A DNA stretch of 62,928 nt from Candidatus Woesearchaeota archaeon (GTDB lineage Archaea; Nanobdellota; Nanobdellia; SCGC-AAA011-G17; ARS1403), in NCBI GenBank assembly GCA_016188065.1, contig JACPIN010000014.1, positions 1 to 62,928 of the forward strand. Direction: 5' to 3'. The position numbers and the translations under genes were made by a program. Positions 640-56,357 of the stretch are shown here, in pieces (within the stretch, counting starts at the first letter, position 1; every line of letters starts with the position of its first letter). The notes below the pieces were generated by a model, which was given only the letters and a program-made list of their open reading frames with translations, was not told the origin of the DNA and ran no database searches.

Positions 640-651
640 TCCCATTATTCG

Positions 652-879
652 TTAAACATATTTCATAAACTCATCTCTAGTTATTTGTAAATCCTTTTTA
701 ATAATTTTATTCAAAAGGCCTGGACCAATTTCCTCTCCAGCATGATGAGGAATAGTAGTTTTCCTGCCATCTTCATGCTCATAAATCATATGACTTCCTC
801 TATGATGTTTAAATTTAAATCCTATTTTTTCAGCAATCCTAGCCAATTCTTTTCCAGTTAAGTGAGGCAACTTTGCCAA
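652..879 (-). CDS. hicA: HicA-type mRNA interferase toxin
   Basis: HicA proteins are small double-stranded-RNA-binding-fold ribonucleases that cleave mRNA and are held inactive by HicB. The 75 residues show the family layout: a helix with LTGKELARIAEKIGF, the catalytic-histidine strand (HHRGSHMIYEH) and a C-terminal part with IPHHAGEEIGPGLLNKII. The apparent start is TTG at 879, seven bases after the stop of hicB, which is upstream on the same strand. The antitoxin-first order differs from the usual hicA-hicB order. Family assignment is firm; activity is inferred. Confidence 0.85.
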   Translation of the reverse strand: MAKLPHLTGKELARIAEKIGFKFKHHRGSHMIYEHEDGRKTTIPHHAGEEIGPGLLNKIIKKDLQITRDEFMKYV

Positions 880-2262: not shown

Positions 2263-2301
2263 AACTTCTAAAATATTTCGCTTATATAAATACTTTACTG
2301 T

Positions 2302-5848: not shown

Positions 5849-5873
5849 GTTAATAAGTGATTTAAAATCAAAG

Positions 5874-6344
5874 ATGGAAGAATTCAAGCATATTATAAGA
5901 TTATTGGACACAGATATAAATGGAAATCTTAAAGTTCAGCAGGCATTGACAAAAGTGCATGGAATAAGCCATATGTTTTCTAATGCTGTATGCAATGTAA
6001 CAGGGGTAGACAAGTCAAAAAAAATAGGATACTTGTCAGACGAGGATCTGAAAAAAATCCAGTTAGTGGTCTCTAGTCCATCAGAAATGCCGTCGTGGAT
6101 ATTCAACAGAAAAAAAGACCGGGGAACAGGAAAAAATATCCATTTGATAGGCTCTGATCTAAAGTTCGGCAAGGACACGGACATCAAGCATCTAAGAAAG
6201 ATGAAATGTTATAGGGGAGTAAGGCATTCATTAGGCCTGCCAATGCGTGGCCAGAGAACTAGAAGCAATTTCAGGCAAGGAAAGACAGTAGGCGTAAAAA
6301 AGAAATCATTAAAACCAGCAAAACCAGCAACAGGTAAGAAGTAA
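5874..6344 (+). CDS. rps13: Small ribosomal subunit protein uS13
   Basis: uS13 sits in the head of the small subunit and contacts the large subunit and P-site tRNA. The 156 residues have the archaeal layout: IIRLLDTDINGNLKV near the start, the H2TH region, and the basic C-terminal signature RHSLGLPMRGQRTRSNFRQG. It opens the rps13-rps4-rps11 operon with a leaderless promoter. The final KKSLKPAKPATGKK is a lineage-style basic tail. Confidence 0.96.
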   Translation: MEEFKHIIRLLDTDINGNLKVQQALTKVHGISHMFSNAVCNVTGVDKSKKIGYLSDEDLKKIQLVVSSPSEMPSWIFNRKKDRGTGKNIHLIGSDLKFGKDTDIKHLRKMKCYRGVRHSLGLPMRGQRTRSNFRQGKTVGVKKKSLKPAKPATGKK

Positions 6345-29160: not shown

Positions 29161-32100
29161 TTAGTCCTCATCCTCTATCTCAAAGTCTTCCCACTTGCTT
29201 TCCTTATCATGCTTTATCTCAAATCCTTCTTCTTTTTCCCGCTCCCTAATCTTCCTGATGCTCTTTTCCTCTTCTTTTTTTTCCGCTCTAACACTTACTT
29301 CCTCTTCTCTTACTCTCCTTTTCTCCTCCTTCAATCTCCTCTTTTCCTCTTTCATTTTTTGTCTCTCTTCTTTCCTTCTCTGTTTCTCTAATATTTTTTC
29401 CTGCTTTCTTTTTTCTTTCTCATCTTTTCTTTTATTTTTCTCTTCCTCTAATCTCAGCTTCTCAACTTCCTTTTTCTCTTCTTCCAGCTTTAGTTTCTCC
29501 TCCTCAATTTTCTCCTTCTCTCTTGTAATTTTATCTTTATGGTGTTTCTTCAGCTTGCCTTTAATCATTTTCTCTTCTCTGGCGAATTTATCCTTGATTT
29601 TCTTAAACTTATTAACCCCTAAAAAATTAAAATTAATTTTACTTATTTTATTAAAAAAAGAAAATTTTGATCTGAGCTTATAAGCAAATATTCCGGCGAT
29701 TGCTAAAACCATGGCTGCAGAAATAATAATGTATAATCTTCCTTTTACACCCATAAACTCCTTAATAGCGCTGCCGGTAAACAATCTTGAAAACACATTT
29801 TCTTTTCCCTCTATGTTTTTATCTTCTTCAGCAAGCTCAATAGCAGTTTCATTTCCAGCATTCTCAGTTTCAGCAGCAGCAATGTCCAAAGCAGAAGCAA
29901 CATTCTTGTCAGAGCTTATAGCAAAATAGCTGAACCCGGGAGTTATAGCCTCATATTTTTGATTATCACCGTCAATGCCTGCAGTCAAGGTTTCAAGTTT
30001 TACCCATTTACCGTCGGTATATCTGGACATGAAAACATTAGTTGGATTATTCAATGCATTTATCAATATCCAGCTTTTAGGCACATCAAATTTGATCTTA
30101 GCTTCTTTCAAGTCAGTATCAACAAAGTTAATATTTATCTTGATATATCTATACGCATTGTCAACAGCACCAACGCCACTTGGCTGCCCGTCTTGTTTCT
30201 CAACTGTGACTTCAGCATTTGCAACAGCGTTCTTAAATTCTAACTCTAATCCGCTAATGCCGACGTCTTTGCTTATTCCAAAGCTTTTTTTATCTCCTGC
30301 ACTCGCCTGAAAGCTCAAAACTGATTTATCCGTCGTAGTTGTAGTAGCTCCTCCTCCAGGACTAGTACTTCCTCCGGGAGAGGTAGTTCCAGCAGAAGGA
30401 CATGACTTAGATGCTGATGGCTTATCAGGATCACTATCAAAACCACAAGAATTAGCATCACTAACAGTTCTTGTTCCACAAGCATTACCCACATCGCTCC
30501 AAGGTCCTATTTGCCAGTTAGGTTTACAAACAATTAATTTCCAGCTAGAAGAAGAATTAGCACTTCTATCAACATTATCAGTACAACCAATATCCCATGT
30601 ATAATTTCCATTACTTAGAGTAGTTGAAAAAGTTTCTTGAGAATTTAAGCCGACAGAAGAACTGCTTGTATTTACAGCATCATTAATTAATAAATCACAA
30701 GAGCTGATCCCATAATCAGAAACATTGTAGTTAAAGCTGACCGAGTTTGAATATAAAGTCGTATCATTCAAAGGGGAGATTAAAGCAACACTTGGATTAC
30801 TTTGGTCAATAATCAATGTTCTGTTTTCAGAGAAATTGCAGACATTATTTGTATCGCAGGCTCCAAAGCCATATAGGTAAACTCCATCAACAAAAGTTGC
30901 ATTAAACTCTGCATTTGTCTCATTAGTATTCAAATTTAAAGTTTCATTAAGATGCCAATCAGTAAGATTATGATAAAAAGTTACATTAGATAAAGTATAT
31001 TTGCTTCCAATTGTAACATTAAAGTCAACAACGCTAGTGCCAGTGAAATTTAGTTCTCCTGCAGGAGAGTTAACAGAAGTAAAGGTTGGTGTTCCGCTTG
31101 TATCCTGCAAGACAAAAGTTTTACTAGTTAAATTTTCATTTCCGTTTGTGTCATTAGCCCAAGCATTAATAGTATAAGTACCTAACTCTGTTAAATTATC
31201 AGTTGTCAAATCCAAACTATCAGTAAAGTCAACCCACAAGCTTCCATTTGGATAGCTTACATTGCTTGTTTTAGAATCAAAGAAAGCATCTACATAAGCA
31301 ATGCTAATTGTTAGATTCTGCTGATTTAATTCTAAAGTATCGCTACTTAAAGTTATAGTAACATTAGGATTAGCGGTATCATTTAAAGCATTATAAACAT
31401 CAATCCTATAATAACTAAATCCGCTACTAGAATCGAAAATGCTCTTGCCAGTTTCCTTCAATTCTTGAATAACCTTAGAAAATCCAACATCTACATTAGT
31501 GTCATTATAGAATTGTCTTAACAAAACAATAGCACCCGCAACATGCGGAGCAGCCATTGAAGTACCTGATTTTTCTCCATATATATCAGTTATATTGGTA
31601 GAGTTAATATTAGAACCTGGAGCAAATAAATCAATTAGATTATTTCTATTACTATTAGTAGAAGCGATACTATCGGACTTATCACTCCATCCAACAGCAG
31701 TTACATTAGAGATACAAGCAGGAGAAGATATGGCAGTATAGTTTCCATCATTGCCCGCAGCTGCAACAACATTAATATTCTTAGCAATAGCTGCATTAAC
31801 AAAAGGTACTAAACTATCACTATCGCAAACATTTTCATAAAGGCCCGAACCTAAACTCATGCTAATAACTGAGATATTATAGGTAGCGGAGTTATTAACA
31901 CACCAATCCAAACCCTCCTGAACAAATCCACAACTTCCAGAAAGATCACAAACTTTAACAGCGACCAAAAAGGCATCAGGAGCAACGCCTTTCAAACTAC
32001 CATTAGCAGCTGCAATACCTGCAACATGAGTGCCATGTCCATTATCATCTACAGGATCAGAATCATTATTCTGAAAATCATATCCCCCAATAACTTTAGC

Positions 32101-32625
32101 GCATGTTCCATTCAAGAATTCATCACTGCTACACCCTCCTAAGTCAACGTGGGTATAATTAATACCTGTATCCAAGATACAAATACCTTGGTCTCTTCCA
32201 GTTACATTTCCTAATCCGTAATTTAAATCATGAACCACAGAAGCATTAATCAGTGGAACACTATCTTGCAATAAAATTTTATAGGTCTGCTTAAAATAAA
32301 TTTTCTCAACTCTATCATCTTGTATTAAATTATTTAAGTCTTCAGAATTAACTTCGCCAGAAAACCCATTAATTATACTAAACTCTTTTTCTTTTTCAAT
32401 ATTTAAATCCTCGACAACATCGCTTACTTTCACATCTTCACTGGTAGAAAAAATTCCAACACCGTTTTCAATTTCATCCTTCAATACAACAATTACTTTT
32501 GCATTGCCGTTTTCCTGTAACTCTTCCAGAACTCTGTCATCAACTTTAGAATCAATGCCGTCGCCAGCATTCCCCATAGTCAGCAAAACCAAAAATAATA
32601 ATATAAAGGCAAATTCCTTTCTCAA
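29161..32625 (-). CDS. Secreted subtilisin-like serine protease with charged cytosolic tail
   Basis: A peptidase S8 of about 1150 residues. Counting from the upstream ATG at 32646 (seven codons earlier), the catalytic Asp is in CILDTGINYTH (about 159), His in DNGHGTHVAG (about 204) and Ser in SGTSMAAPHVAG (about 363). A signal peptide, inhibitor-like propeptide, Ig-like repeats and a Thr/Gly/Pro linker are present. A late membrane helix (YIIISAAMVLAIAGIF) precedes about 170 residues of Lys/Glu/Arg coiled coil. I chose TTG 32625: it overlaps the previous stop and has AGGTGA at proper spacing. The tail would stay in the cytoplasm. Confidence 0.88.
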   Translation of the reverse strand: MRKEFAFILLFLVLLTMGNAGDGIDSKVDDRVLEELQENGNAKVIVVLKDEIENGVGIFSTSEDVKVSDVVEDLNIEKEKEFSIINGFSGEVNSEDLNNLIQDDRVEKIYFKQTYKILLQDSVPLINASVVHDLNYGLGNVTGRDQGICILDTGINYTHVDLGGCSSDEFLNGTCAKVIGGYDFQNNDSDPVDDNGHGTHVAGIAAANGSLKGVAPDAFLVAVKVCDLSGSCGFVQEGLDWCVNNSATYNISVISMSLGSGLYENVCDSDSLVPFVNAAIAKNINVVAAAGNDGNYTAISSPACISNVTAVGWSDKSDSIASTNSNRNNLIDLFAPGSNINSTNITDIYGEKSGTSMAAPHVAGAIVLLRQFYNDTNVDVGFSKVIQELKETGKSIFDSSSGFSYYRIDVYNALNDTANPNVTITLSSDTLELNQQNLTISIAYVDAFFDSKTSNVSYPNGSLWVDFTDSLDLTTDNLTELGTYTINAWANDTNGNENLTSKTFVLQDTSGTPTFTSVNSPAGELNFTGTSVVDFNVTIGSKYTLSNVTFYHNLTDWHLNETLNLNTNETNAEFNATFVDGVYLYGFGACDTNNVCNFSENRTLIIDQSNPSVALISPLNDTTLYSNSVSFNYNVSDYGISSCDLLINDAVNTSSSSVGLNSQETFSTTLSNGNYTWDIGCTDNVDRSANSSSSWKLIVCKPNWQIGPWSDVGNACGTRTVSDANSCGFDSDPDKPSASKSCPSAGTTSPGGSTSPGGGATTTTTDKSVLSFQASAGDKKSFGISKDVGISGLELEFKNAVANAEVTVEKQDGQPSGVGAVDNAYRYIKININFVDTDLKEAKIKFDVPKSWILINALNNPTNVFMSRYTDGKWVKLETLTAGIDGDNQKYEAITPGFSYFAISSDKNVASALDIAAAETENAGNETAIELAEEDKNIEGKENVFSRLFTGSAIKEFMGVKGRLYIIISAAMVLAIAGIFAYKLRSKFSFFNKISKINFNFLGVNKFKKIKDKFAREEKMIKGKLKKHHKDKITREKEKIEEEKLKLEEEKKEVEKLRLEEEKNKRKDEKEKRKQEKILEKQRRKEERQKMKEEKRRLKEEKRRVREEEVSVRAEKKEEEKSIRKIREREKEEGFEIKHDKESKWEDFEIEDED

Positions 32626-32918
32626 CCTCTCACCTCTTCCAAGCATTCCTTATAATTATCATTTTCCAGCCACGCGCATTTATTATCAACACACCCGCAG
32701 CTAGTCAGTTTCAGGCAAGAATATTCCTCTCTGTATTCGCAAGTTGTTATTATCTCAGAAGTTTTTTCAGCAGGAGCGCAAATCTGTCCAGAGCAGCCGG
32801 CAGGAGCACACTCAGAATCAGAAGTGCATTCCATATTTTTATCAGCATCAATATGATAACAGCCGCTAATTAAAACCAATAAAGGCAACAGTATCACCCC
32901 TAGCTTCATCTCACTCAA
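32622..32918 (-). CDS. Cysteine-rich lipoprotein
   Basis: A 98-residue exported protein with a signal peptide and a lipobox-like LISGC, followed by at least eight cysteines (CTSDSECAPAGCSGQIC, CEYREEYSC, CGCVDNKC). The spacing matches the eight-cysteine-cluster small exported proteins of DPANN-like archaea. It overlaps both the rnp3 gene and the subtilase, so it may be made together with the protease. Function unknown. Confidence 0.7.
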   Translation of the reverse strand: MSEMKLGVILLPLLVLISGCYHIDADKNMECTSDSECAPAGCSGQICAPAEKTSEIITTCEYREEYSCLKLTSCGCVDNKCAWLENDNYKECLEEVRG

Positions 32919-36179: not shown

Positions 36180-37961
36180 TTATTCAATCCTTACTCTCCT
36201 AACACTATTGATTTTGCTCACCCTATCAACTACGTCCTTAACGCTTTTCAGCGAGTCGAATTCAATATTCAGCACACACTCAGCTATATCGCTCCCAATG
36301 GAATGGGCCTTGGCAGACTTGACATTTATTCCCAAGCTTGCAACGCTGTTCAATATCTCGGCAAATAATCCTAGCCTGTCATCGGCAAAAATTATGACGC
36401 TCACTATGCCTCTAAAGCCCTCAATCCAATAGACATTAACAATATTTTTAATAGACGCGGCATTCCTGCATTTTTCAGAGTGCACTACCACATTCCTGAA
36501 GCTGCTCAAAGATCCGATAATCGTATCCATTGGTATCGGGCTGCAGCATTTGGCAACCTCAATATTAAAATTGCCGTCGGCAGTAATAAAACTCTTATTA
36601 TTGCCTTCTGCAGTAGTCCTATTATAGGCGCCCTGTCTTATCTGCAAGGTATTCCTTATCTTCTCCAAGGCCTTACTCGTTTTTACAAAGCTCAGCCAGT
36701 CTCTGCTAGGTTTGTGGCTCTTAGACGTTAATATTTCGACATCATCCCCGTTTTTCAAGACATGCCTCACACCAACAAACCTGCCATTAACTTTTGCCCC
36801 GGTGCAGGCATTGCCGACGTCACTGTGAACAGCATAGGCAAAATCAACTACAGAGCTGCCGTCATCCAATTCAATGATGTCCCCTTTAGGTGTAAAGCAA
36901 AAAATCTTGTCGCCAAAAATATCCAGTTTTAATTTATACAAAAATTCTTTGTCGCTTTCATTAGCAAAAGATAAAATTTGCCTCAGCCAGCTCAGTTGCT
37001 TATTAAATTTAACATCTTTCAATCCTTTATACTTCCAATGTGCAGCAATTCCCTCCTCTGCAATGTCATTCATTCTTCTAGTCCTGATTTGAACCTCAAC
37101 AGGCATATTATCATAAGTAAATCCCGCATGCAAACTTTGATACAGATTATCTTTAGGCGCAACAATAAAATCCTTGAATCTCTCGGGAAGGGTTTCCCAT
37201 AAATTATTCACAATGCCAAGCGCAGCATAACAGCTATCGCTGTCTTCAACAATGACCCTAAGCCCTATCAAGTCGTGAATATCCTCAAACTTCTTTTTCT
37301 TATTGACCATCTTTCTGTAAATGCTATAGAAGTGTTTAGGCCTGCCAAATACCTCTCCCTCTATCCTATTTTTCCTAAGGGCATTTTCAAGTTTCCTCTT
37401 CAAATCGCGGACAATTTTCTCTCTAAATTTTCTTTTAGCTTGAACCCCCCATTTTATTCTGTAATATTCCTCAGACATTAAGTGTTTGAAGGAAAGATCC
37501 TCAAGCTCCCATTTTACATCACTAAGTCCGAGCCTGTAAGCGATGGGTGCATAAATCTCAAGTGCCTCCCTGCTGATTTTATTTTGTTCAGCGCCATCGA
37601 TATTGGAAAAATTTCTCATGGCATGTAATTTCTCAAGCAGTTTGACAATCAGCACCCTCAAGTCCGGTGTAGTCGCGATCAGCATCTTTCTAGTCTTCTC
37701 TTCTCTATTCTTATTGCTGGCTTTCAAAGCAAGTTCGTCAAATTTTCTCAGCCCGGATATTAATTCAGAAACCGCATCGCCGAGTTTTTTCCCGTCGTCA
37801 ATATCGTACAGCAGTGCAGCTGCAATGCTGTTATCATCTAAGCCGTAATTTTTCAAAAATTTTTGATAGGTACTTTTACGCATCAGCAAACTTGAATTTT
37901 CAGAGTTCTTGCAATATTCTCTAAGAAAAATCCTTACTTTCCTGAGTTGAAACTTTTGCAT
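36180..37961 (-). CDS. Long RelA/SpoT homologue with degenerate hydrolase domain
   Basis: Long RSH enzymes make or degrade (p)ppGpp. Order: HD region (residues 45-150), synthetase (about 200-315), TGS (about 360-430), ACT (about 520-593). In the HD region, ALLYDID replaces ALLHDV and KLLEKLHAMRN replaces KLADRLHNMRT, so the metal-binding His and catalytic residues are lost. The synthetase keeps GRPKHFYSIYRKM, GLRVIVED, YQSLH and EVQIRT with AAHWKYKG. It therefore looks like a synthetase-only long RSH, unusual in archaea. Confidence 0.88.
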   Translation of the reverse strand: MQKFQLRKVRIFLREYCKNSENSSLLMRKSTYQKFLKNYGLDDNSIAAALLYDIDDGKKLGDAVSELISGLRKFDELALKASNKNREEKTRKMLIATTPDLRVLIVKLLEKLHAMRNFSNIDGAEQNKISREALEIYAPIAYRLGLSDVKWELEDLSFKHLMSEEYYRIKWGVQAKRKFREKIVRDLKRKLENALRKNRIEGEVFGRPKHFYSIYRKMVNKKKKFEDIHDLIGLRVIVEDSDSCYAALGIVNNLWETLPERFKDFIVAPKDNLYQSLHAGFTYDNMPVEVQIRTRRMNDIAEEGIAAHWKYKGLKDVKFNKQLSWLRQILSFANESDKEFLYKLKLDIFGDKIFCFTPKGDIIELDDGSSVVDFAYAVHSDVGNACTGAKVNGRFVGVRHVLKNGDDVEILTSKSHKPSRDWLSFVKTSKALEKIRNTLQIRQGAYNRTTAEGNNKSFITADGNFNIEVAKCCSPIPMDTIIGSLSSFRNVVVHSEKCRNAASIKNIVNVYWIEGFRGIVSVIIFADDRLGLFAEILNSVASLGINVKSAKAHSIGSDIAECVLNIEFDSLKSVKDVVDRVSKINSVRRVRIE

Positions 37962-45431: not shown

Positions 45432-45865
45432 GTTTTCTGCAGGCATTATCTAGAATTGAAAGTTCAAAAATATTTCAGGACTATCAGAAAAAGAACACCG
45501 AGGCATATCTGACGAATTCAGTATACATACAAGAATGGCAGATAAATTTCTATTCAAAAAGGACTAAATTAATAACCTCATTTACGCCAGACAGCAATGT
45601 AAAGAAAAAAGTCATGGATGGGAAAAATCAGGAATTCCCAGTTCTTAACAAAAACAAAATAAAAGTAGATATTACAAAAGCCATAGAGCTATCTAGAAGC
45701 AGGCAGGAAGGGTCAATGATTATTATAATCCAGACAGAGAATTCAATTCCTGTATGGAATATCACTATCCCAACGCCTTCTTTGAAAGTGATAAACTCAA
45801 AAATCTCAGCAGAGTCCGGAGAAATTCTGGAGAAATCCGAAAAAAATATTGTTGAATTAAGGTAA
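45425..45865 (+). CDS. Hypothetical protein coupled to thrS
   Basis: A 146-residue protein that overlaps the end of thrS by 7 bp. It starts MLGFLQALSRIESSKIFQDY. The C-terminal half has several strands (SMIIIIQTENSIPVWNITIP). No membrane helix or known domain. It may be related to translation by context only; its 3' end overlaps the convergent VWA gene by 9 bp. Confidence 0.5.
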   Translation: MLGFLQALSRIESSKIFQDYQKKNTEAYLTNSVYIQEWQINFYSKRTKLITSFTPDSNVKKKVMDGKNQEFPVLNKNKIKVDITKAIELSRSRQEGSMIIIIQTENSIPVWNITIPTPSLKVINSKISAESGEILEKSEKNIVELR

Positions 45866-46759
45866 GCTTCTATATTTTGAATTCATTAGCCCCCATTCAA
45901 CAAGCAGCAGGCCAACACCAATTAAAAGCAGCATTACCGTCAAATTCTTGCCAACTCTTTTCATCCTCAGCTGTGCAATTTCTGAAAAAGCTTTTTTTAA
46001 TTCGTCCTCATTTGCAGCGCTGTAATATTTTCCTCCGGTTTCATCAGCAATAAATTTCAGGGATTCCTCGTCTAGCCTGGTAACAGCGTCGCCAACAAAG
46101 CTGCCACCTTCCTTCGTTCCAATGCCGATGGTATGAGCAAGAATTTTATTTTCAAGCAGAAATGGGATTGCATCATTAATTTCAAGCCCGACATTGCTCT
46201 GCCCGTCGGTAAGCAAAACCAAAACATTCCCTCCTTCTTTCCCGGAAAAAAATAAATTGCTCCCGGTCACAAGCGCATCGCCGATTGCAGTCCCGCCAAC
46301 GCCCTCAATATTAATATTTTCTATAACGTCTTTAACTTCGCCAATATCGTCGGTTAATCTCTGCTTTACAAAGCTTGTTCCTGTAAACGTAATAACGCCA
46401 ATTTTAGTTCCAGCCCCAATAGAGTCTACAAACCTCAGCGCAGATTCCTTTGCAGCATCAATTCTGCTAGGCTTGAAGTCATTTGCAGTCATGCTTGCGC
46501 TTGCATCAATCAATAATCCATAATTAAAATCACTCCCTCTTGCATTATACCAGTAAGTTATTCCGGATGCGCTCAGTATCAAGCAGCTGACAACAATCAG
46601 TCTCATAAAAAGCAGCGTCCAGTTCTTGCTCACTATTTTTTTCCCGGTAATCTTTTCAATGACGCTGAAATTTGCAAACTTCAACGCCTTTCTCTTAGTA
46701 TATTTCAAGCTGATAAAATGGATTATAATCAGCAGAGGCAAAGCTATAAAAAAACTCAA
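45857..46759 (-). CDS. Membrane-anchored VWA-domain protein (BatA-like)
   Basis: Third gene of a MoxR-DUF58-VWA operon. An N-terminal membrane pair (FFIALPLLIIIHFISLK; LLFMRLIVVSCLILSASG) is followed by a VWA domain with the metal site LIDASASMTANDF, DGQSNVG, and a final membrane helix (LTVMLLLIGVGLLLVEWGL). The given end is the TTG at 46759, but homologues begin earlier: the frame upstream reads ISFEDPEFL, so the true start may be a rare codon near 46791. Confidence 0.82.
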   Translation of the reverse strand: MSFFIALPLLIIIHFISLKYTKRKALKFANFSVIEKITGKKIVSKNWTLLFMRLIVVSCLILSASGITYWYNARGSDFNYGLLIDASASMTANDFKPSRIDAAKESALRFVDSIGAGTKIGVITFTGTSFVKQRLTDDIGEVKDVIENINIEGVGGTAIGDALVTGSNLFFSGKEGGNVLVLLTDGQSNVGLEINDAIPFLLENKILAHTIGIGTKEGGSFVGDAVTRLDEESLKFIADETGGKYYSAANEDELKKAFSEIAQLRMKRVGKNLTVMLLLIGVGLLLVEWGLMNSKYRSLP

Positions 46760-46782: not shown

Positions 46783-47676
46783 TCAGCGGTATTTTAGCAC
46801 TCTCCTTTTGAACATTTTAACAATTGGCTTGACAAAATCCATCTCTGTTGTCAGCTGCAGAAATTCTCCTCCTCCGCACTCAGAAAAGATTTCAGAAATC
46901 CTTTCTTCTTCTCTTTTAACATAGCTTTCATATGCTTGTTTAATTGCAGCAGGATTTACAATTTTTTTCCTGTCGTCCTCGGGGCTCTCCAGCACAATCT
47001 CGCTGTAGTCATCGGGAAGCTGCCTGTCTCTGACATCGCGAATCATAATCCCTACCACATCAAATTTTCTGCATGCAATCCCCAGATTCTTGACCCATTC
47101 ATCCCCCTTTAATCCAATAAAATCAGAAACAATGAAGAACAAGCTTCCCCTTGGCAAAACCCCGGTATAATACCTCAATGGCTTTGCAAGATCAAAGCCG
47201 TTTCCATAAAGGTTTAAATCTACAAGGTTGCTCAAGATGTTGTAATACTGTTTTTCACCGCTGGCAGGAAGAAAATTCCTAACAACGCTTTTATTGAACA
47301 TCCCAAGCCCAACAGCATCTGAAGAATGAACTATCGCGAAGCTCAAGCTGGCCACAAGCTCGGCAGCATACTGGGCCTTTATCTTCTCCCTAGTTCCAAA
47401 AAGCATAGTGCTGCTTGCATCAACCAAGAAGAAAACATTCAAGCTTCTCTCCTCGACGTATTCCCTGACTAAAAGATCATTAGCCCTGCTGCTCGCCTTC
47501 CAGTCAATCTTGCTCGCATCATCACTAGTGTCGTATTTTCTAAAGCCATAAAATTCCAGTCCGGATCCTTTAAATGCCGTTTGGTAATTTCCAGATAAAT
47601 TTGACATAAACATCTTCCTGGTGCTGAGATCCAGCCTATTAGCCAAATCTTTAATATCGAGCTTTAATTTTTTCAT
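46783..47676 (-). CDS. DUF58 family protein
   Basis: A 297-residue VWA-related DUF58 protein. It carries the typical GSGLEFYGFRKYDTSDDASK then IDWKASSRANDLLVREYVEE and an incomplete VWA MIDAS (FLVDASSTML). In bacterial Bat operons DUF58 acts between MoxR and VWA proteins, probably in metal-centre insertion or protein assembly at the membrane. It lies 1 bp from moxR. Confidence 0.88.
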   Translation of the reverse strand: MKKLKLDIKDLANRLDLSTRKMFMSNLSGNYQTAFKGSGLEFYGFRKYDTSDDASKIDWKASSRANDLLVREYVEERSLNVFFLVDASSTMLFGTREKIKAQYAAELVASLSFAIVHSSDAVGLGMFNKSVVRNFLPASGEKQYYNILSNLVDLNLYGNGFDLAKPLRYYTGVLPRGSLFFIVSDFIGLKGDEWVKNLGIACRKFDVVGIMIRDVRDRQLPDDYSEIVLESPEDDRKKIVNPAAIKQAYESYVKREEERISEIFSECGGGEFLQLTTEMDFVKPIVKMFKRRVLKYR

Positions 47677-47677
47677 C

Positions 47678-48658
47678 TTAAGGAGTAGGGACTTTAAGCA
47701 ATACCTCGGAAACTATATCGTCGGTTTTAATATTTTCAGCCTGCCCTTCATAATTCAAAATTATCCTGTGTCTCAAAACATCATGCACAACATTTTTGAC
47801 ATTCTTGGGCGTTACATAATTCTTCCCTTCAAGTAATGCATCTGCCTTTGAAGATATGTACAATCCGATGCTGGCTCTTGGGCTTCCTCCCCATGCAATA
47901 TACTTCGCATTTTTTAATTTATATTTATCCGGAAATCTAGTCGCATCAACTATCCTGACAATGTATTTTTCAATCTCTGGGCTTAGATATATGCTCTTGA
48001 CAAGGTTCTGCATTTTGATAATTTCTTTAGAGGAGATAACAGATCTTATCTTAAAGTCACTGAAAGCATTTATAGTAATATTTTTCTGCAAAATCCCCTG
48101 TTCATCCTCTATTTTTGGGTAATTTATATATAGCTTAAATAAAAATCGATCCATCTGAGCCTCAGGCAGGGGAAAAATCGCAACACTCTCTATAGGATTT
48201 TGAGTTGCAAGGACGAAAAAAGGCTCTTCAATGTTAAAAGTCTTAGTTCCAATAGTCACTTGCTTTTCCTGCATGGCCTCAAGCAGCGAGCTCTGAACCT
48301 TTGCAGGAGCCCTATTGATCTCATCAGCAAGCAAAAAGTTTGTAAAAACAGGGCCTTTGACAACATAGAATCCTTTGTTCTTGTCATAAGCAGTTATCCC
48401 TGTTATATCCGTTGGCAATAAATCTGCAGTAAATTGTACTCTCTTGTAGTCGCTGGTAGTGACATGCGCAAGGGAGCGCATAATCAAAGTCTTAGCTATT
48501 CCAGGAACGCCCTCAAGTAAAACATGGCCTTTGGCTAATATAGCTCTCAGCAGGCTGTTAACAACATCTGACTGGCCTACGACGGTTCTAGAAATCTCTC
48601 CTCTAATGATGTCTAAATCTTTCTTAATCTTGCTTAACTCGCTGCTGCTTACCTTCAT
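47678..48658 (-). CDS. moxR: MoxR-type AAA+ ATPase
   Basis: A chaperone-type ATPase of 326 residues. Walker A is GVPGIAKTLIMRS, Walker B LLADEINRAP, sensor 1 ATQNP, sensor 2 area SPRASIGLYISSK, and FPLPEAQMDRFLFKLY is typical of MoxR. It heads the MoxR-DUF58-VWA operon and is divergent from the gene at 48829. It likely works on the VWA partner. Confidence 0.93.
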   Translation of the reverse strand: MKVSSSELSKIKKDLDIIRGEISRTVVGQSDVVNSLLRAILAKGHVLLEGVPGIAKTLIMRSLAHVTTSDYKRVQFTADLLPTDITGITAYDKNKGFYVVKGPVFTNFLLADEINRAPAKVQSSLLEAMQEKQVTIGTKTFNIEEPFFVLATQNPIESVAIFPLPEAQMDRFLFKLYINYPKIEDEQGILQKNITINAFSDFKIRSVISSKEIIKMQNLVKSIYLSPEIEKYIVRIVDATRFPDKYKLKNAKYIAWGGSPRASIGLYISSKADALLEGKNYVTPKNVKNVVHDVLRHRIILNYEGQAENIKTDDIVSEVLLKVPTP

Positions 48659-48828: not shown

Positions 48829-49287
48829 ATGTATCAGGCACAAAAGATGAACAAAACTCAGGAAAAAGCATTCCAGTGGTTATTGAATCAGGGCTATAAA
48901 AAAGAAGACATTTCTATACGGCAGAATGCATCGCCTGCTTTCACGGCCAGCGACGGTAAGAAATTTGAAGCCAGGAGATTGTATGGGGCGCAGATAATCT
49001 TCTACAGCACGCAGTACCAGCAGCTCAAGCATCACCCAAAAGCATTGATTCTGGTTTTTCGGGAAAACGAAGAAGAGCCCTTTGCGAAATTCAGGTTTGA
49101 AGAAATAAGTTCGCTTCCAAAAAGCTACAAAGGGATAGATATCAACTGGGTAAGCTTGCAGCAGGACATTGGGACAATAAGGGTCTCAAAAAAGACAAAA
49201 GAAAGGCTGCAGGCATTCGGAAAAATGGGGGAGGATTTTGACAAGCTGATAAACAGGCTGCTTGACAAGGTTAAGAAAAATGGATAA
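48829..49287 (+). CDS. Possible nucleic-acid-binding protein with C-terminal RHH-like helices
   Basis: A 152-residue protein. The first part, QEKAFQWLLNQGYKKEDISI, with later DGKKFEARRLYGAQIIFYS, resembles a small restriction-endonuclease-like or nucleic-acid-binding fold without a clear active site. The end, GTIRVSKKTKERLQAFGKMG, looks ribbon-helix-helix-like. ATG 48829 or 48847 are both possible. It overlaps the giant gene by 8 bp, so it may regulate it. Confidence 0.5.
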   Translation: MYQAQKMNKTQEKAFQWLLNQGYKKEDISIRQNASPAFTASDGKKFEARRLYGAQIIFYSTQYQQLKHHPKALILVFRENEEEPFAKFRFEEISSLPKSYKGIDINWVSLQQDIGTIRVSKKTKERLQAFGKMGEDFDKLINRLLDKVKKNG

Positions 49288-52200
49288 AAACATGCTGATA
49301 AAAAATCTTGCATTAGTTTCAATTCTCATTTTAATAGCCCAAAGCATAAGTGCGCAAAGCCAGATAGTTTCGAAGTTTGAAAAAGTAAAGGAAATCGAAA
49401 CTCCAACTTTAAAGATCTCATTTCATTCTTGGGGAGAGGGAAAAACAGAGCAGTTAAATTTAGACCAATACTTCCCTGTAAAGAGAGATCCGAATTCGAG
49501 ATACGTTTATCTGGCTCCTCCGGAAATATCTGTGAGGATAGATCAGGATGCAGGTATTGCATATCTTACCGCATTCAAAGACTGGACAGGAACGAGAGAG
49601 ATAATATTCTCGTTGACAGATATATATAAGTTAGAAGCGACGCTTACAAGCCTGCAGAATTACAGGGAGATAATAACGCAGCAAAGAGCTCCAGTGAGAT
49701 TGAAGCAGCAGTTTGAAGACCTGCCTTCATATCATTTATTTGAAAAAATATTAGACGATTTGGAGTCTAGTAAGATTCCATCACCAAGAATTGAAGTCAC
49801 AAAAATAGACAATAACATAAGAGTGTCAGTAGGAAAGGGAACAAGCTTAGATCTGGATTTGCAGACATTGACAGAAGACAATCTTCCGACGCTAAAGCCA
49901 AAGATTGCAATAACAATACAGCCCGAAGAGGTTCCAGCAGAGGAGCAGGAAGAAGGGCTTTCAATTTTCTTGTTCATTCCATTGATGCTGATAATTATAA
50001 CTCTGCTTATATTCGGGATATTTTACATAAAGAATAACCGGGAGAAATTAAAAAAGCATTTCAAGAAAAGCAAGCCGCAGCCAAGTGTGCGCAACAAGTT
50101 GATAGAAGAAAAGAGGGAGCTGTCAGAGATAGCAAACAAGCTGGACAAGCAGCCGGTAAAGGACTCGATTGACTCGGCATTTGCAGTAATAAAGAATTTC
50201 TTCAATGAAGTGACTCCTGATGAATATCAATTCTCGTATTCAGAAATAAAAAAAGAGCAGTTTGAAAAGGCATTAACTGAAGGATTGAAGGACAAGCTCT
50301 GTAAATTCTCAAAAGAAATATCAGACATAAGATTCAGCGGAGACGGGATAAAAAAAGCAGAATTAATGAAAATAATAAAGCAGGCCCAGTTGTTGATGGC
50401 GAATGCAGCAAGTGAAGAAGAAAAAATCTCAGCAAAAAAAGAGCATGAAATATTAAGGAAAAAATTCCCGATAAGCGAGATAAAATACATTCTAGATTCC
50501 TTTACTCCTAGCGGAAAAGAACTCTCAGCATCAAAAATAAAGGAAAAAATTGATCTGGAGAAAAAATCCAAAAATATCCTGCACAAGCTGGGGATAATCA
50601 GGACACTTGCAGAAAAAGAACTCGCAAGAAAAATAAAATACAGGAAAAAGCTGCAAAAATTAAAAGAAAATCAGCACAAGAAAGAAGAAGAAAAAAGAAA
50701 AAGGGAAGAAGAGAAGAGAAAGAAAAAGTTGTTGAAGCTAAAAGCAAAACAGGAAAAAGAGCATCTCAAATGGCTCGAGGCTCAGCGCAAAGTTAAAGAA
50801 AAGCAAAGAAAACAGGAAGAAAAAAGAAAAAGAAGGCTGGAAAGGGCAAAGGCATTCCGGGATTTCTTGCATGATAAATTAGGATTGTTCAAAACTGTTA
50901 AAGACCTAGAAAAAGAATTAGAGGGGAAAAGGAAGGAGAAGCTTGAAAAAGAGAGGATAAAAAGAGCCAAAAAAAGGCAGCTCAAAAGATCTATACTAAA
51001 TTTCATGCACTTCTTGAGGATATATAAGACGCCTGAAGAAAAACATGAGGAGGAATTGATTCTCAAGAGGGAAGACAGGCTGAAGAAGCAGAGAAAGGAT
51101 AGGAAGAGAGAAGCAAGAAAACAGGCAGTGCTATCCTTCTTGCATTCATTGAGATTATACAGGACAAGGGAAGAAGTTGAAAGGGAAAAAGAGAGAAGGC
51201 TGAGAAGATTAAGGGAAAAGCAGAGAGAAAATGAAGAAGAGTATGATAGGAAAGAAAAAGAAAGGCAGCAAAAAAGAAAAACCAGGCAGGGCAAAAAGCT
51301 AAGGAAACTTGAAGAGAAGAAGAGAAAAAAGCATTTGAAATTATTGGAGCATGCAAGAAAGGCAAGAGAGAAAGAATTAGCCAGGGCAAAAAGAAAGGAA
51401 TCTCTAAAAAGGGAGAAGGCAGAAATCAGAAAATATCTGCATGACAAATTAGGATTGTTCAAGACTCTGGAAGAGAAAGAGCGTGAAAGGGAATTAAATT
51501 TCAGAAAAAGAGCAGAAGAGAAAAAAAGGAAAGAGCAGAAGAAGCTGGAGCAGCAAAAAAGAAAAGAAAAAGTAAAACAAAAACAAAAAGAGCTGTCTAA
51601 AAAACAGGTGGAATTAAGAAAAGATTCTATAAAAAAATTTCTGCACGCCCATTTTGGGTTATACAGGACAAGGGAAGAAGTTGAAAGGGAGAAAAAAGAA
51701 AAATTAGAAAGGGAAATATCAAAAAAAGAAAGAGCAAAGAAAAAGCATGAAATAGCAAGAGCAGAGGAAAAAAGAAAACTAAAGGCATTCTTGCACGATC
51801 ATCTCGGGCTGTTTAAGACTAGAGAAGAAATAGAGAAAGCAAGGCGGGAAAGAAAAGAGCACAGGATAGAGCTCAAAAATAAATTAGAAGACACAGTCTT
51901 AAGATCTCTTGCTTCAAGGCTTGAAAGGAAAAAGCTTTCTCCAGAGCAGGAAATAAAAATCCTGATGCAGCTGGAAGAAGAAGCGCTGAAAAAAGGAAAC
52001 ACAGAAAAATCAAGAGAGATACAAAAAAAGATAAATAAGCTTTACAAAAAGATAAGGAAATCAAAATCACAGCACCCATCGCTTTTCTTGAACAAGTTGA
52101 AAAATAATATCGCATCTGCCAGGGACTATTTATTCTCCTCGGCGTCGAAGCTTGACCCATTATCCCCGTTCATAAAAAAGTTGAATTCAAAAATAAGGGA

Positions 52201-53389
52201 GTCATTTGCTCCGAAAAGAGAAGATGCAAAGCTCGATCAAATCAATTACTTGATTAACAAAGCAGAGATTGAGCTGAGAAGAAATAAGAAAGAAGAAGCA
52301 AAGGAATACTACAAGAGGGCATTGTATCTATACCGCTCTTTAAACAGGGCATCTCAAAAAATCGCGCTTCCGGTTCTGCTTAAGATAAAAAGCGAAATTA
52401 CATCTACAGCAATAATAGATTCGATGGAGAAGGCATTTAGTGCAGTTTACACAGGCCAGCTAAAGAAGGCTGAAAAGCTTTACAAGAACATAGACGCAAA
52501 TTTCCTTAATCTTCCGCAGGCAGAAAAAGAAAAGGTATATGGCAAGAAAGAAGACCTCTACCAAAAAATAGCAGAGCACAAAATCAAGCCTGCCACGCAA
52601 GAAAAAGTTTCAATTAAGTCTGTAATATCTAGTCTCTTCAGGAAGAAAGAATCCAAAAAGTTCTACCCTCTAGTTGAAGCAGAAGAAAGTTTCAAGCCTA
52701 AGCAGCAAGAAACTGCCAGTGTAAATGTAGAGAAGCCAAAGCAGCAGGTTTTCAAAAAGAGAGAATCTGTTATAGACTTCATACTAGCTAAAAAGCCAAA
52801 ATTCACATCGATAAGAACAGAGATAAAAAATAAAGCGCATAATAAAAACCTCATAGGAAAAATGTTCAGCCATATTCGTCAGGCGGAAGTGCATTTGCAA
52901 AAGAAGAGCCATGAAAGGGCCCATCATAACTACAAGCAGGCAATATCCATATTCAAGGAGATTCATTTAAGCCCGGAAGTCAGGGACAGCGTATATAATC
53001 ATTTCAATGATATCAAGGAAAAAATCATCCACACAAGTATACATAACTTCATGAAGAAAACAAAGGAGTCAGTAAATAGGGAAGATGTAGAAGGGGCAAA
53101 AAAATTCCATAAGTCATTGGACGGAGTCTACAGCCATCTCCAGAGAAAAAAAGAAAAAGAAATTTTAGAAATTAAAAATGAAAAAGGCAGCACGGGAGTT
53201 ATTTATGATTTGTTGTTAGTAGAAAGAAAATTAGACGAGGCATTTTCTTATTTAAGCAAAAACAAGACAGAAGAAGCAATTAAAGTCTACAATCAGATTA
53301 ACAGCCACTATAATAATTTAAAACCAGAAGAAAAGAAGGTAGCATATCCAAGATTGCTGACTTTGTATTCTGAGCTGTCAAGAAAATAA
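49280..53389 (+). CDS. Giant membrane coiled-coil protein with FLHDxLGLxKT repeats and TPR-like ends
   Basis: About 1370 residues. Signal peptide (LALVSILILIAQSISAQ), an exported domain of about 200 residues, one membrane helix (FIPLMLIIITLLIFGIFYI), then a cytosolic Lys/Glu/Arg coiled coil. It includes six copies of a FLHDKLGLFKT-like unit (near 50863, 51000, 51138, 51433, 51638 and 51789). The last 500 residues carry TPR-like helices (KAEIELRRNKKEEAKEYYKR and similar). The ATG at 49280 gives a better signal peptide than the TTG at 49262. No known family as a whole. Confidence 0.78.
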   Translation: MDKNMLIKNLALVSILILIAQSISAQSQIVSKFEKVKEIETPTLKISFHSWGEGKTEQLNLDQYFPVKRDPNSRYVYLAPPEISVRIDQDAGIAYLTAFKDWTGTREIIFSLTDIYKLEATLTSLQNYREIITQQRAPVRLKQQFEDLPSYHLFEKILDDLESSKIPSPRIEVTKIDNNIRVSVGKGTSLDLDLQTLTEDNLPTLKPKIAITIQPEEVPAEEQEEGLSIFLFIPLMLIIITLLIFGIFYIKNNREKLKKHFKKSKPQPSVRNKLIEEKRELSEIANKLDKQPVKDSIDSAFAVIKNFFNEVTPDEYQFSYSEIKKEQFEKALTEGLKDKLCKFSKEISDIRFSGDGIKKAELMKIIKQAQLLMANAASEEEKISAKKEHEILRKKFPISEIKYILDSFTPSGKELSASKIKEKIDLEKKSKNILHKLGIIRTLAEKELARKIKYRKKLQKLKENQHKKEEEKRKREEEKRKKKLLKLKAKQEKEHLKWLEAQRKVKEKQRKQEEKRKRRLERAKAFRDFLHDKLGLFKTVKDLEKELEGKRKEKLEKERIKRAKKRQLKRSILNFMHFLRIYKTPEEKHEEELILKREDRLKKQRKDRKREARKQAVLSFLHSLRLYRTREEVEREKERRLRRLREKQRENEEEYDRKEKERQQKRKTRQGKKLRKLEEKKRKKHLKLLEHARKAREKELARAKRKESLKREKAEIRKYLHDKLGLFKTLEEKERERELNFRKRAEEKKRKEQKKLEQQKRKEKVKQKQKELSKKQVELRKDSIKKFLHAHFGLYRTREEVEREKKEKLEREISKKERAKKKHEIARAEEKRKLKAFLHDHLGLFKTREEIEKARRERKEHRIELKNKLEDTVLRSLASRLERKKLSPEQEIKILMQLEEEALKKGNTEKSREIQKKINKLYKKIRKSKSQHPSLFLNKLKNNIASARDYLFSSASKLDPLSPFIKKLNSKIRESFAPKREDAKLDQINYLINKAEIELRRNKKEEAKEYYKRALYLYRSLNRASQKIALPVLLKIKSEITSTAIIDSMEKAFSAVYTGQLKKAEKLYKNIDANFLNLPQAEKEKVYGKKEDLYQKIAEHKIKPATQEKVSIKSVISSLFRKKESKKFYPLVEAEESFKPKQQETASVNVEKPKQQVFKKRESVIDFILAKKPKFTSIRTEIKNKAHNKNLIGKMFSHIRQAEVHLQKKSHERAHHNYKQAISIFKEIHLSPEVRDSVYNHFNDIKEKIIHTSIHNFMKKTKESVNREDVEGAKKFHKSLDGVYSHLQRKKEKEILEIKNEKGSTGVIYDLLLVERKLDEAFSYLSKNKTEEAIKVYNQINSHYNNLKPEEKKVAYPRLLTLYSELSRK

Positions 53390-53456: not shown

Positions 53457-56357
53457 ATGAGTGAAGTTCCAAAAGACATAAAAAAAATAAATGAAGTAAC
53501 TTGGGAGATTCCAACTTCTTACAAGCAGGGCATGAATGTTCCAGCAAGAATTATAGCAACAGAATCTCTGTTAAAAGCAATGGACCCGGGGGTTTTCAAC
53601 CAGGTAACAAATGTGGCGACACTTCCAGGCATAGTTAAGTATTCAATATGCCATGCTGATGGTCATTGGGGCTACGGTTTTCCAATCGGCGGAGTTGCAG
53701 CATTCGATATTGAAGAAGGGGTTATCTCTCCAGGCGGAATTGGTTTCGATATTAATTGCGTTAGCCCTAAAACAAAAATTTTAATGGATTATGGTTACTA
53801 TAGAAAAATAAAAGATCTAAGAGAAGATCTTTCTAAAGAAAAGATTTCTTTTATTAGCCTAAAAAATAGAAAAAAAGAGAGTTCTCCTGCAGTTTTATTG
53901 CTAAAAAAAAAAGCCGATAATAATATTCTAAAGATAAAGACAAAATACGGGGAGGAAATAACTGTTTCAGAAGACCACCCACTGTTAACAAACAACGGAT
54001 TCGAAGAGGCAGGCAATTTGAGAAAGAAAAATGGGATTATCACTCATCCATTTGTCGGTGTCGAATATAAAAAACCTACAAAGAAAGTAATCTTAGATAG
54101 TAAAGATATAATAACTTTAATTGGAAACAGGAAGAAATTAATCAAAGAACTAAAACAGAAAAGACTATTGCCCTTAAAATTTAATTCTGAAAAACTCCCA
54201 ATTCTGGCTAAATTAGTTGGTTTTTTGACAGGGGATGGTTGGATAGGAACTTATTATTCCAAAAAAAGAAAGAGCGATATCTGGTCGATGAGAGTTATCG
54301 GCAAACTACAAGATTTAGGAGAGGTCAGAAACGACATTGCCAAACTGGGGTATATTGCAAACCATATTACAACTAAAGAGTATACTAGCAAATTAAAGGA
54401 AATTAATGGAGATGAAAGAAAGATATATGGAACATCTAATCAGTTATATCTCAACTCACAATCTCTTGCTGTGCTATTGCACGCGCTCGGTGTACCAAAA
54501 GGAAATAAGTCAAAAATTATTGTTAATGTTCCGATCTGGATTAAAAAAGCCCCCCTTTGGATTAAAAGGCTCTATTTAGCAGGCTTATTCGGAGCAGAAT
54601 TAAATAGGCCCTGCCAGAGAAAAGGAGAACCTTGCACATTTACAGAACCCAGTTTTAGTCAAAATAAAATAGATTCCCTAGAAAGAGAGAACTTGAATTT
54701 CATGTTAGAAATTACGAATCTCTTATTGGAATTCGGAGTCAATATTAACAAAGTTTACAAACAAAAAGTGGTTGTAAACGTTGATAGTGCACAAACACAT
54801 AAGCTAGCTCTTAGAATATCTGCAAAGCCTGAAAATCTGATTAATCTTTGGAGCAAAGTTGGTTATGAGTATTGCAAAGATAGGAAAGAAAGCTCAATGC
54901 TAGCTTTAGCTTATCTAAAATATAAGCAAAAAACACTTAAAAGAAAAACAATAGCTTCAGGTAAAAGTATTTCTATTAAGGAGAATAATGGCGAAATAAT
55001 GCTTATCACACAAATATCTGAAGATAGTTTCCCGACCTTCGCAGAATTTTCTGAAAAATCTAGAATAAAAGATTCTGAATTTATATCTGATGAAGTAGAG
55101 GAGATTGTCAAGTTAGATTACAGGGGAGATGTTTATGATCTAACGATGGATGACAAAAATCACAATTTCATTGCAAATTGTATAGTTTCACACAATTGTG
55201 GAATGCGCAGCATAGTAACAAATCTAACGCAGAAAGAAGTTCAGCCAAAGATAAAAGAACTGACAGATACCCTATTCAAGTTGGTTCCGGCAGGAGTTGG
55301 CTGTAAAGGATTTGTCAAGCTAACCAGATCAGAATTCAATGAAGTAATGTGTTCAGGCTCTAAATGGTGTGTAGAAAGGGGATATGGCTGGGAGGAAGAT
55401 CTAGAAGGAACAGAAGATTATGGAACATTAAAAGGCGCAAACCCAGAAAAAGTTTCAGAAAGAGCTATAAGCAGGGGGATTAGCCAGCTAGGAACATTAG
55501 GTTCTGGAAATCATTATCTTGAGATTCAAATAGCCCGCGCAGAAAATATCTACGATGAAAAAACCGCAAAGAAATTTGGAATAATCGATAAAGATCAAGT
55601 TATAATAACAACGCATTGTGGAAGCAGGGGATTTGGGCATCAAAATGCAACGGACTATCTTAAAGTGTTTGAAAGAATAATGAAAGAGCACAACATAAAA
55701 GTCTCTGATAGGGAATTATCATGTGCTCCATTCCAGACAAAAGAAGCTCAAGATTATTATTCTGCAATGAAGTGCTCAGGCAACATGGCATATGCAAACA
55801 GGCAGGTAATAATGCATAGAATTAGAGAGGCATTCAAGCAAGTTTTCAAAAAAGATCCAGAAAAATTAGGCATGCATCTAATCTACGATTGCACTCACAA
55901 TTTAGCAAGAGAGCATAAAATAAAGCTCGAAGGAAAAATGAAAAAAGTTTTAGTCCATCTAAAGGGAGCGACAACATCCGTCGGTCCTGGTTACGAAAGG
56001 CTAACTAGCAAATATGAAGAGACGGGCTCGCCGATAATCATCGGAGGCAGCATGGAAACCGGCTCATATTTAATGATGGGAACAAGAAAGGCAGAAGAAG
56101 AAACATTCGGAACAACAATACATGGGGCAGGAAGAACAATGTCAAGAACGAAAGCAAAGAGCGCAATTAGAGGAGAAAAGCTTCAGAAAGACATGGAAAA
56201 AAAAGGGATCTATGTCAGGGGAGTTTCAATGTCAGGGCTGGCGGAAGAAGCAGGATTTGCCTACAAAGATTTAACTGCAGTTGGAGACTCAGTAGAAAAA
56301 GCAGGAATTTCTAAAAGAATAGTTCTGCTAAAGCCAATTGGAAATGTGAAGGGATAG
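53457..56357 (+). CDS. rtcB: RNA ligase RtcB with an in-frame intein
   Basis: RtcB joins tRNA halves after intron removal, using GTP and a 3'-phosphate. The 966 residues contain about 486 of RtcB: SPGGIGFDIN before the intein; CGMRSIV, SGNHYLEIQ, HCGSRGFGHQN and HGAGRTMSRTKAKSAI after it. A 480-residue intein separates them. The catalytic Cys is the first residue after the intein, so the enzyme is active only after splicing. Archease is encoded convergently next to it. Confidence 0.94.
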   Translation: MSEVPKDIKKINEVTWEIPTSYKQGMNVPARIIATESLLKAMDPGVFNQVTNVATLPGIVKYSICHADGHWGYGFPIGGVAAFDIEEGVISPGGIGFDINCVSPKTKILMDYGYYRKIKDLREDLSKEKISFISLKNRKKESSPAVLLLKKKADNNILKIKTKYGEEITVSEDHPLLTNNGFEEAGNLRKKNGIITHPFVGVEYKKPTKKVILDSKDIITLIGNRKKLIKELKQKRLLPLKFNSEKLPILAKLVGFLTGDGWIGTYYSKKRKSDIWSMRVIGKLQDLGEVRNDIAKLGYIANHITTKEYTSKLKEINGDERKIYGTSNQLYLNSQSLAVLLHALGVPKGNKSKIIVNVPIWIKKAPLWIKRLYLAGLFGAELNRPCQRKGEPCTFTEPSFSQNKIDSLERENLNFMLEITNLLLEFGVNINKVYKQKVVVNVDSAQTHKLALRISAKPENLINLWSKVGYEYCKDRKESSMLALAYLKYKQKTLKRKTIASGKSISIKENNGEIMLITQISEDSFPTFAEFSEKSRIKDSEFISDEVEEIVKLDYRGDVYDLTMDDKNHNFIANCIVSHNCGMRSIVTNLTQKEVQPKIKELTDTLFKLVPAGVGCKGFVKLTRSEFNEVMCSGSKWCVERGYGWEEDLEGTEDYGTLKGANPEKVSERAISRGISQLGTLGSGNHYLEIQIARAENIYDEKTAKKFGIIDKDQVIITTHCGSRGFGHQNATDYLKVFERIMKEHNIKVSDRELSCAPFQTKEAQDYYSAMKCSGNMAYANRQVIMHRIREAFKQVFKKDPEKLGMHLIYDCTHNLAREHKIKLEGKMKKVLVHLKGATTSVGPGYERLTSKYEETGSPIIIGGSMETGSYLMMGTRKAEEETFGTTIHGAGRTMSRTKAKSAIRGEKLQKDMEKKGIYVRGVSMSGLAEEAGFAYKDLTAVGDSVEKAGISKRIVLLKPIGNVKG
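53757..55196 (+). other. Intein with LAGLIDADG endonuclease in RtcB
   Basis: The intein begins with Cys (codon 101) and ends with His-Asn just before the RtcB catalytic Cys. Its N-terminal splicing block is CVSPKTKILMDYGYY and the B block has SEDHPLLTNNG. The endonuclease helices are LVGFLTGDGWIG (about residue 252) and LYLAGLFGAEL (about residue 371). The C-terminal block is YDLTMDDKNHNFIANC. It therefore looks able to splice and home. Length 1440 nt. Confidence 0.93.

Follow-up and report, generated by a model that had tools for sequence, protein, structure and literature searches.

What kind of membrane protein carries one short motif again and again behind its membrane helix, and what does the array do there? 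The question is raised by a gene in the window, by which we mean the whole stretch of 62,928 nucleotides analysed here, from a Candidatus Woesearchaeota archaeon (contig JACPIN010000014.1). A preliminary description of this gene had proposed a giant coiled-coil protein with a new helix-breaking motif in six copies, followed by TPR-like repeats, and a possible part as a scaffold or cytoskeletal anchor. We consider it probable that the protein serves a MoxR-DUF58-VWA (Bat-type) locus as its membrane subunit of the BatD/TPR type, with a spacer that has turned into a hinged arm. The type of locus and the BatD-like nature of the protein belong to kinds already known, and the hinged heptad arm is a new form.

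The long protein and its locus

The signal peptide, the single membrane helix and the very long cytosolic part proposed earlier were all recovered, with a basic stretch just inside the membrane (Table 1); helix prediction by itself puts the membrane helix at residues 229-247. Residues 43-114 of the ectodomain are beta-rich and Ig/cadherin-like, with AlphaFold strands at 43-51, 57-60, 73-78, 83-88, 93-98 and 103-114, and are followed by a less ordered stretch; profile columns 50-115 match repeats in other large ORFs of the order. At the other end, the TPR-like repeats expected after the motif array are indeed present: scanned alone against Pfam, the C-terminal region matches TPR_2 (31.9 bits, cut-off 27) and TPR_12 (31.7 bits, cut-off 30.1), the TPR scores of the whole protein lying just under cut-off, and two C-terminal regions among the orthologues match SbsC_spectrin-like weakly. 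Searches of Pfam, NCBIfam, PHROGs and PADLOC with the whole protein returned nothing beyond TPR-type signals, and PDB sequence searches with the TPR region and with the post-membrane domain returned nothing convincing. The two AlphaFold models of the protein are of moderate confidence (mean pLDDT 62 and 68.6); neither has a Foldseek match at E <= 0.001, and their weak matches include TPR proteins and the SbsC S-layer protein.

Table 1. Features of the long gene and its neighbours (window coordinates), and positions of membrane helix and motifs in motif-bearing proteins of other families
Feature	Position	Strand	Basis
VWA membrane protein with BatA N-terminal domain	45857..46759	-	Pfam VWA 70.5 bits; BatA PF07584 28.8 bits, cut-off 25.9
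DUF58 protein	46783..47676	-	Pfam DUF58 133.5 bits
MoxR AAA+ ATPase	47678..48658	-	Pfam AAA_3 193.5 bits
Small cytosolic protein, 152 aa	48829..49287	+	ORF; conserved beside long gene in family
Membrane protein of 1369 aa, probably BatD-like, with proposed hinged arm in the cytosol	49280..53389	+	ORF, ATG at 49280 to stop at 53389; family orthologues
Signal peptide, residues 1 to about 26	49280..49357	+	Hydrophobic helix 5-23; Q26 invariant in alignment A2
Ectodomain, residues 27-228	49358..49963	+	AlphaFold strands; profile matches
Single membrane helix, about residues 229-252, then basic KNNREKLKKHFKKSK	49964..50035	+	Helix prediction, AlphaFold, positive-inside rule
Post-membrane BatD-C-like helical domain, about residues 268-375	50081..50404	+	A5 against bacterial BatD
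Motif 1, ILHKLGIIRT, residues 433-442	50576..50605	+	
Motif 2, FLHDKLGLFKT, residues 529-539	50864..50896	+	
Motif 3, FMHFLRIYKT, residues 575-584	51002..51031	+	
Motif 4, FLHSLRLYRT, residues 620-629	51137..51166	+	
Motif 5, YLHDKLGLFKT, residues 719-729	51434..51466	+	
Motif 6, FLHAHFGLYRT, residues 787-797	51638..51670	+	
Motif 7, FLHDHLGLFKT, residues 837-847	51788..51820	+	
C-terminal TPR and helical-hairpin region, residues 891-1369	51950..53386	+	Pfam TPR_2, RapH_N above cut-off; AlphaFold hairpins
L123	helix 1694; motifs 1880-2291		
L124	helix 5796; motifs 5860-6187		
L126	helix 1492; motifs 1585, 1826		
L127	helix 711; motif 1010		
L128	helix 313; motif 455		
L129	helix 313; motif 672		
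L130	helix 298; motifs 379-826		
L132	helix 3; motif 219		

The earlier reading overlooked the neighbourhood: the gene belongs, as a BatD-like component, to a conserved MoxR-DUF58-VWA locus, in which armless short relatives fill the same place in other families. Where contigs allow, the gene order within the family is ThrRS, orf146, VWA, DUF58, MoxR, orf152, long gene, RtcB, archease. Proteins that share the membrane-proximal half are syntenic with MoxR-DUF58-VWA in the window family and in five other families of the order: short proteins with the same N-terminal half stand beside these genes in G025, G016, G020 and G036, related proteins with a membrane helix and BatD-C-like domain adjoin them in G044 and G087, and a TPR-bearing member adjoins MoxR in G035. 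It counts against a Bat-type reading that in several relatives the N-terminal family is located away from MoxR, which is usually present in the genome. A search of the literature returned no paper with both Woesearchaeota and MoxR.

The 152-aa gene lies between MoxR and the long gene, its 3' end overlapping the start of the latter by 8 nt; with a DUF7557/antitoxin-like segment at its C-terminus, its product is a candidate regulator of the divergent Bat-like locus. MoxR itself varies in length, from 326 to 478 aa among ORFs of the family, and has a long N-terminal extension in G025 (L042:2327-3874; 515 aa against 326 in the window). One MoxR ORF of the family genome G005 (L037:2-3544) is 1181 aa long and matches MoxR at residues 3-121 only, with residues 161-326 of MoxR on another contig, which may reflect an intein in MoxR or a join made in assembly. 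Downstream, the RtcB ligase gene (53457-56357) contains an intein (Intein_splicing 66.5 bits); RtcB ORFs measure 798 and 967 aa in G004 and G005 and 485-487 aa in G003, G006 and G007, so the insertion is polymorphic within one family. Elsewhere the window encodes a 1161-aa subtilase-family protein (29161-32646; Peptidase_S8 140.5 bits) and a RelA/SpoT homologue with HD, TGS and ACT domains in a small-genome archaeon (36180-37961).

The relationship to bacterial BatD was traced through the domain that follows the membrane helix. The profile A5, from an alignment of this domain in 22 archaeal proteins, matched the C-domain of Bacteroides finegoldii BatD at 19.0 bits over nearly the full profile, the maximum of 1,200 shuffles being 10.7 (hmmsearch); one row of A5 carries one wrong residue (YIDK for YINK), which entered profiles only and no structure prediction. 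The second BatD of the same operon scored 9.9 bits, a value exceeded by one shuffle of the 1,200, and the remaining bacterial BatD/DUF4381 proteins gave background scores. Compared by hhalign with eight Bacteroidales BatD domains, A5 reached 74.5% probability, E 2.7e-5 and a score of 32.0 (controls: 60 column shuffles at most 15.5, reversed alignment 9.6), the bacterial set being small and from one order, which counts against the BatD reading. Neither DUF4129 nor Pfam BatD PF13584, a 92-column model of the N-terminal Ig-type region, matches the window protein; no Pfam family consistently matched the members of A5, and DUF4129 (PF13559) has weak matches in relatives (E 0.06 and 0.1), one of them (G035:C125) inside a family member. 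Taken together, homology of the post-membrane domain to bacterial BatD has moderate strength, and we name the protein BatD-like rather than BatD because PF13584 does not match.

The layout is that of BatD: like the Bacteroides proteins, the window protein has a signal peptide, a beta ectodomain, one membrane helix, a related cytosolic helical domain and the same gene neighbours. The bacterial proteins compared lie in MoxR-DUF58-BatD-VWA-VWA-TPR-BatD operons (the B. finegoldii operon ends in a further TPR gene: MoxR-DUF58-BatD-VWA-VWA-TPR-BatD-TPR), and Prevotella nigrescens has a BatD-TPR fusion of 858 aa. The window protein differs from Bacteroides BatD in its shorter ectodomain, in its lack of a PF13584 match, in being a single fused protein and in the 415-residue hinged arm between the BatD-C-like domain and the TPR region. 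A study of Leptospira describes its Bat proteins as probably joined in a single membrane-associated complex, for whose assembly TPR provides the scaffold, and it notes bat gene fusions (PMC3557215). In the window protein, the Ig-like domain lies outside, and one membrane helix leads to the BatD-C-like domain just inside; by analogy, this domain may be the meeting point of the MoxR and VWA proteins, a physical contact that we infer.

The motif array and the arm

The motif first described as FLHDxLGLxKT is real, and it is present in seven copies, one more than had been counted. A regular expression for it finds seven copies in residues 410-900 and no match elsewhere in the six frames of the window; 20,000 composition shuffles of the region average 0.0001 copies and never yield more than 1. 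Its novelty held up in searches of Pfam, NCBIfam, PHROG and PDB, which gave no match (PDB by sequence nothing convincing), and the literature searched held no description of it, so that the motif is apparently undescribed as far as these searches show. Between orthologues it is better conserved than the linkers (0.83 against 0.67, 0.70 against 0.47, 0.73 against 0.48). At identical residues, the codons vary between copies (CAC/CAT, GGA/GGG, AAA/AAG, ACA/ACT/ACG), so the copies are old and maintained at the level of the protein.

The AlphaFold model of the arm and C-terminal region, computed for residues 410-1369 together with nine orthologue sequences (mean pLDDT 68.6), has its long helices interrupted at 437-442, 535-539, 579-584, 624-629, 725-729, 792-797 and 843-847. 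Each of these predicted breaks falls exactly on the (L)GLFKT part of one of the seven motif copies, in keeping with the helix-breaking role first proposed. A threonine or serine followed two or three positions on by acidic residues is a standard helix N-cap. Each segment of the arm would end in an xLHxxGLFKT turn, in which the helix stops at G-L-F-K and the T/S caps the next, with acidic residues two to three positions on. The helices between motifs had been put at about 45-70 residues, which is approximate: from the end of one motif to the start of the next we measure 86, 35, 35, 89, 57 and 39 residues.

The linkers have the sequence character of single alpha-helix (SAH) domains. In residues 410-890, where K, R and E abound (58% of residues charged, net +88), opposite charges are enriched at i+3 and i+4 (z 3.8 and 3.5), and the charge autocorrelation, negative at lags 3 and 4, turns positive at lag 7. 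The arm has no raised hydrophobic power at period 3.5, and the linker hydrophobics are spread over several heptad positions. This signature is that of straight, charged helices and not of a classical coiled coil; of the coiled coil that had been proposed, the heptad register and the lag-7 charge pattern stand, and a clear hydrophobic a/d pattern is lacking. A spectrin-like bundle was ruled out for the arm, the linkers having no hydrophobic core. As in SAH (ER/K) domains such as myosin levers (PMC5812594, PMC5378345), K/E/R-rich helices carry opposite charges at i/i+3 and i/i+4; unlike these, the arm has a conserved hydrophobic turn at fixed heptad intervals, is strongly net basic and keeps a heptad register in phase with the turn. 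Long cytosolic helical repeats behind a membrane helix are also the layout of EzrA and spectrin-like membrane-anchored scaffolds. The window protein differs from them in linkers without the hydrophobic core of three-helix spectrin repeats and in its ectodomain outside the cell, and no sequence match to them was found.

The strong charge suggests two other uses of the arm. In one, the turns would be in-plane membrane contacts, aromatic and hydrophobic motifs flanked by Lys/Arg that staple basic helices to the inner leaflet, so that no arm would reach into the cytosol; the basic context of the motifs would suit this, yet the conserved H, G and T/S N-cap look structural or sequence-specific rather than generically amphipathic and heptad spacing would be superfluous for stapling, and we think it unlikely. 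Quite improbable, in our estimation, is a nucleic-acid or ribosome tether, whose basic helices would bind RNA or DNA and fix ribosomes or the nucleoid to the membrane at export sites of surface proteins: to the charge of the repeat region comes a further net +42 in the C-terminal region, but Pfam and NCBIfam reveal no nucleic-acid-binding domain, and the motif itself is not basic.

Linker length is quantised in heptads. In the clade of G003, G004, G005 and G007, 33 of 47 linkers are 28, 35 or 42 residues long, counts that come from related sequences and are therefore dependent; the changes between orthologues are separate events, and five of six are of exactly 7 residues (86 to 93, 89 to 82, 42 to 35, 28 to 35 and 38 to 31), the exception being 28 to 64. 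Linkers whose length is a multiple of 7 are phased to the motif, register position 0 being K/R in 69% and hydrophobic in 9%, and position 4 hydrophobic in up to 34%, an unevenness that none of 2,000 shuffles reached. Because the linkers come in whole heptads, successive turns would keep a fixed rotational phase, and this phase may be under selection.

Growth of the arm among orthologues

Orthologues of the long protein occur in all eight sampled genomes of the family, the window's own and seven others; named equivalents include Ca. Woesearchaeota RIFCSPLOWO2_01_FULL_35_31 and Nanoarchaeota ARS1286, ARS1403 and ARS1172. An alignment-based search of genome contigs returned six named relatives, all of them Woesearchaeota/Nanoarchaeota assemblies; a single-protein query of the contigs found none. 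Complete orthologues span 981 to 1611 residues, with 1 to 15 motif copies. Relatives without the motif already show the succession of membrane helix, BatD-C-like domain and TPR-like region, and so does G006 with its one copy; since G006 has a single motif in 981 aa and G007 has 15 in 1611 aa, the array appears to be an expandable spacer between the BatD-C-like domain and the TPR region.

Elsewhere in the order, the parts are often divided between two adjacent genes (G011, G051, G088, G036, G020, G065), a layout that in the window family is one protein. The first gene encodes ectodomain, membrane helix and BatD-C-like domain, and the second a signal peptide, membrane helix and BatD-C-like domain followed by charged helices, TPR-like in several; examples are 352 + 333 aa in G036 and 326 + 747 aa in G011. 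These relatives share the parts of the window protein and differ in having no LHxxGLYKT motif, with ectodomain and long tail in separate genes.

In the window family, the stretch between the BatD-C-like domain and the TPR region would have grown by expansion into an arm whose straight helices are highly basic. The arm would most likely be a jointed, extendable spacer or a multi-site docking rod, holding the TPR end, and any binders of the turns, away from the membrane; the role first proposed, as a scaffold or cytoskeletal anchor, is conceivable. The alpha-helix rises 0.15 nm per residue. The 415-residue array of the window protein would thus span at most about 60 nm in contour, a figure that rises to about 90 nm for G007. 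Orthologues differ so widely in copy number and length, with G006 managing on a single copy, that the array could be thought a near-neutral low-complexity expansion with no function beyond that of a soluble helix. We hold this to be very improbable, for the motif is more conserved than the linkers, its codons have diverged while the residues stay, linker lengths are quantised, and the motif also occurs in other proteins of distant families.

The motif in other surface proteins

The motif is confined neither to this gene nor to low-complexity disorder, an outcome that would have spoken against the preliminary description: besides the orthologues of seven other genomes, it is found in unrelated surface proteins of other families. 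A strict motif profile run on 61 relatives matched within the window family only; broader samples placed the motif in G161, G171, G262, G291, G302, G328, G122, G063 and G186, all of the same class. Its spread is patchy: among 378 genomes of the class, 15 have it at E 0.01, and 8 of these belong to the window family. Outside the family the canonical form is xLHxxGLYKTPEEK, the 11-residue LHDxLGLFKT being mainly a family variant. A weak match in a polytopic membrane protein (L172, from G005) and matches in GTPase genes (the second ORF of L171, and L173) were dismissed as chance.

In every non-family protein long enough to show a membrane helix, the motif lies C-terminal to that helix, in a K/E/R-rich tail (Table 1); L170 (G063) and two surface proteins of G005 have the same layout. 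The ectodomains of these proteins differ from one another, and some of the tails, read directly from the sequences, carry TPR-like hairpins resembling those of the window protein. Its recurrence in other families of the class, each time on the C-terminal side of the membrane helix in a large surface protein, suggests that the motif may be a portable cytosolic module. Two of the carriers stand out in themselves. L124 (G262:C12), an extremely large archaeal surface protein, has an open frame of 10,932 aa, of which a part of 6,266 aa with the membrane helix and motif-bearing tail was examined. L170:3362-7717 encodes 1451 aa in which the series of ectodomain, membrane helix and K/E/R tail occurs twice in tandem, an unusual internal duplication in that it includes the membrane helices.

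This recurrence bears on a further reading, in which the motif serves for docking. Each turn would be a short site for one conserved cytosolic partner, and the array a valency ladder by which that partner is gathered beneath the membrane, in common for Bat-like and giant surface proteins. The conservation of the motif over its linkers, the range of 1 to 15 copies and its position behind the membrane helix of unrelated proteins, some with TPR-like hairpins in the tail, all agree with such a role; the patchy spread, in contrast, demands a partner that is broadly present or co-inherited. We regard docking as a real possibility, somewhat short of an even chance, and it is compatible with the hinged arm that we favour.

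Tentatively, and with more doubt than confidence, we extend the argument to the class. LHxxGLYKTPEEK might be an undescribed portable DPANN module that builds hinged, heptad-quantised charged rods on the inner side of the membrane helix in surface proteins with no other kinship, namely a Bat-locus protein and adhesin-like giants of >6,000 aa, and ties them to one common intracellular system such as a membrane-linked skeleton or export platform of very small cells. Profile A3 can be used for searches, and the motif peptide as bait. MoxR-DUF58-VWA loci, a stress-chaperone gene set, occur widely, and how they work is poorly understood; the series from armless short relatives, by way of an orthologue with one motif, to some 1,600 residues and 15 hinges offers a handle on the target of this subunit. 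Surface proteins of different families are also connected by the motif, in cells whose coupling of outside to inside is very little understood.
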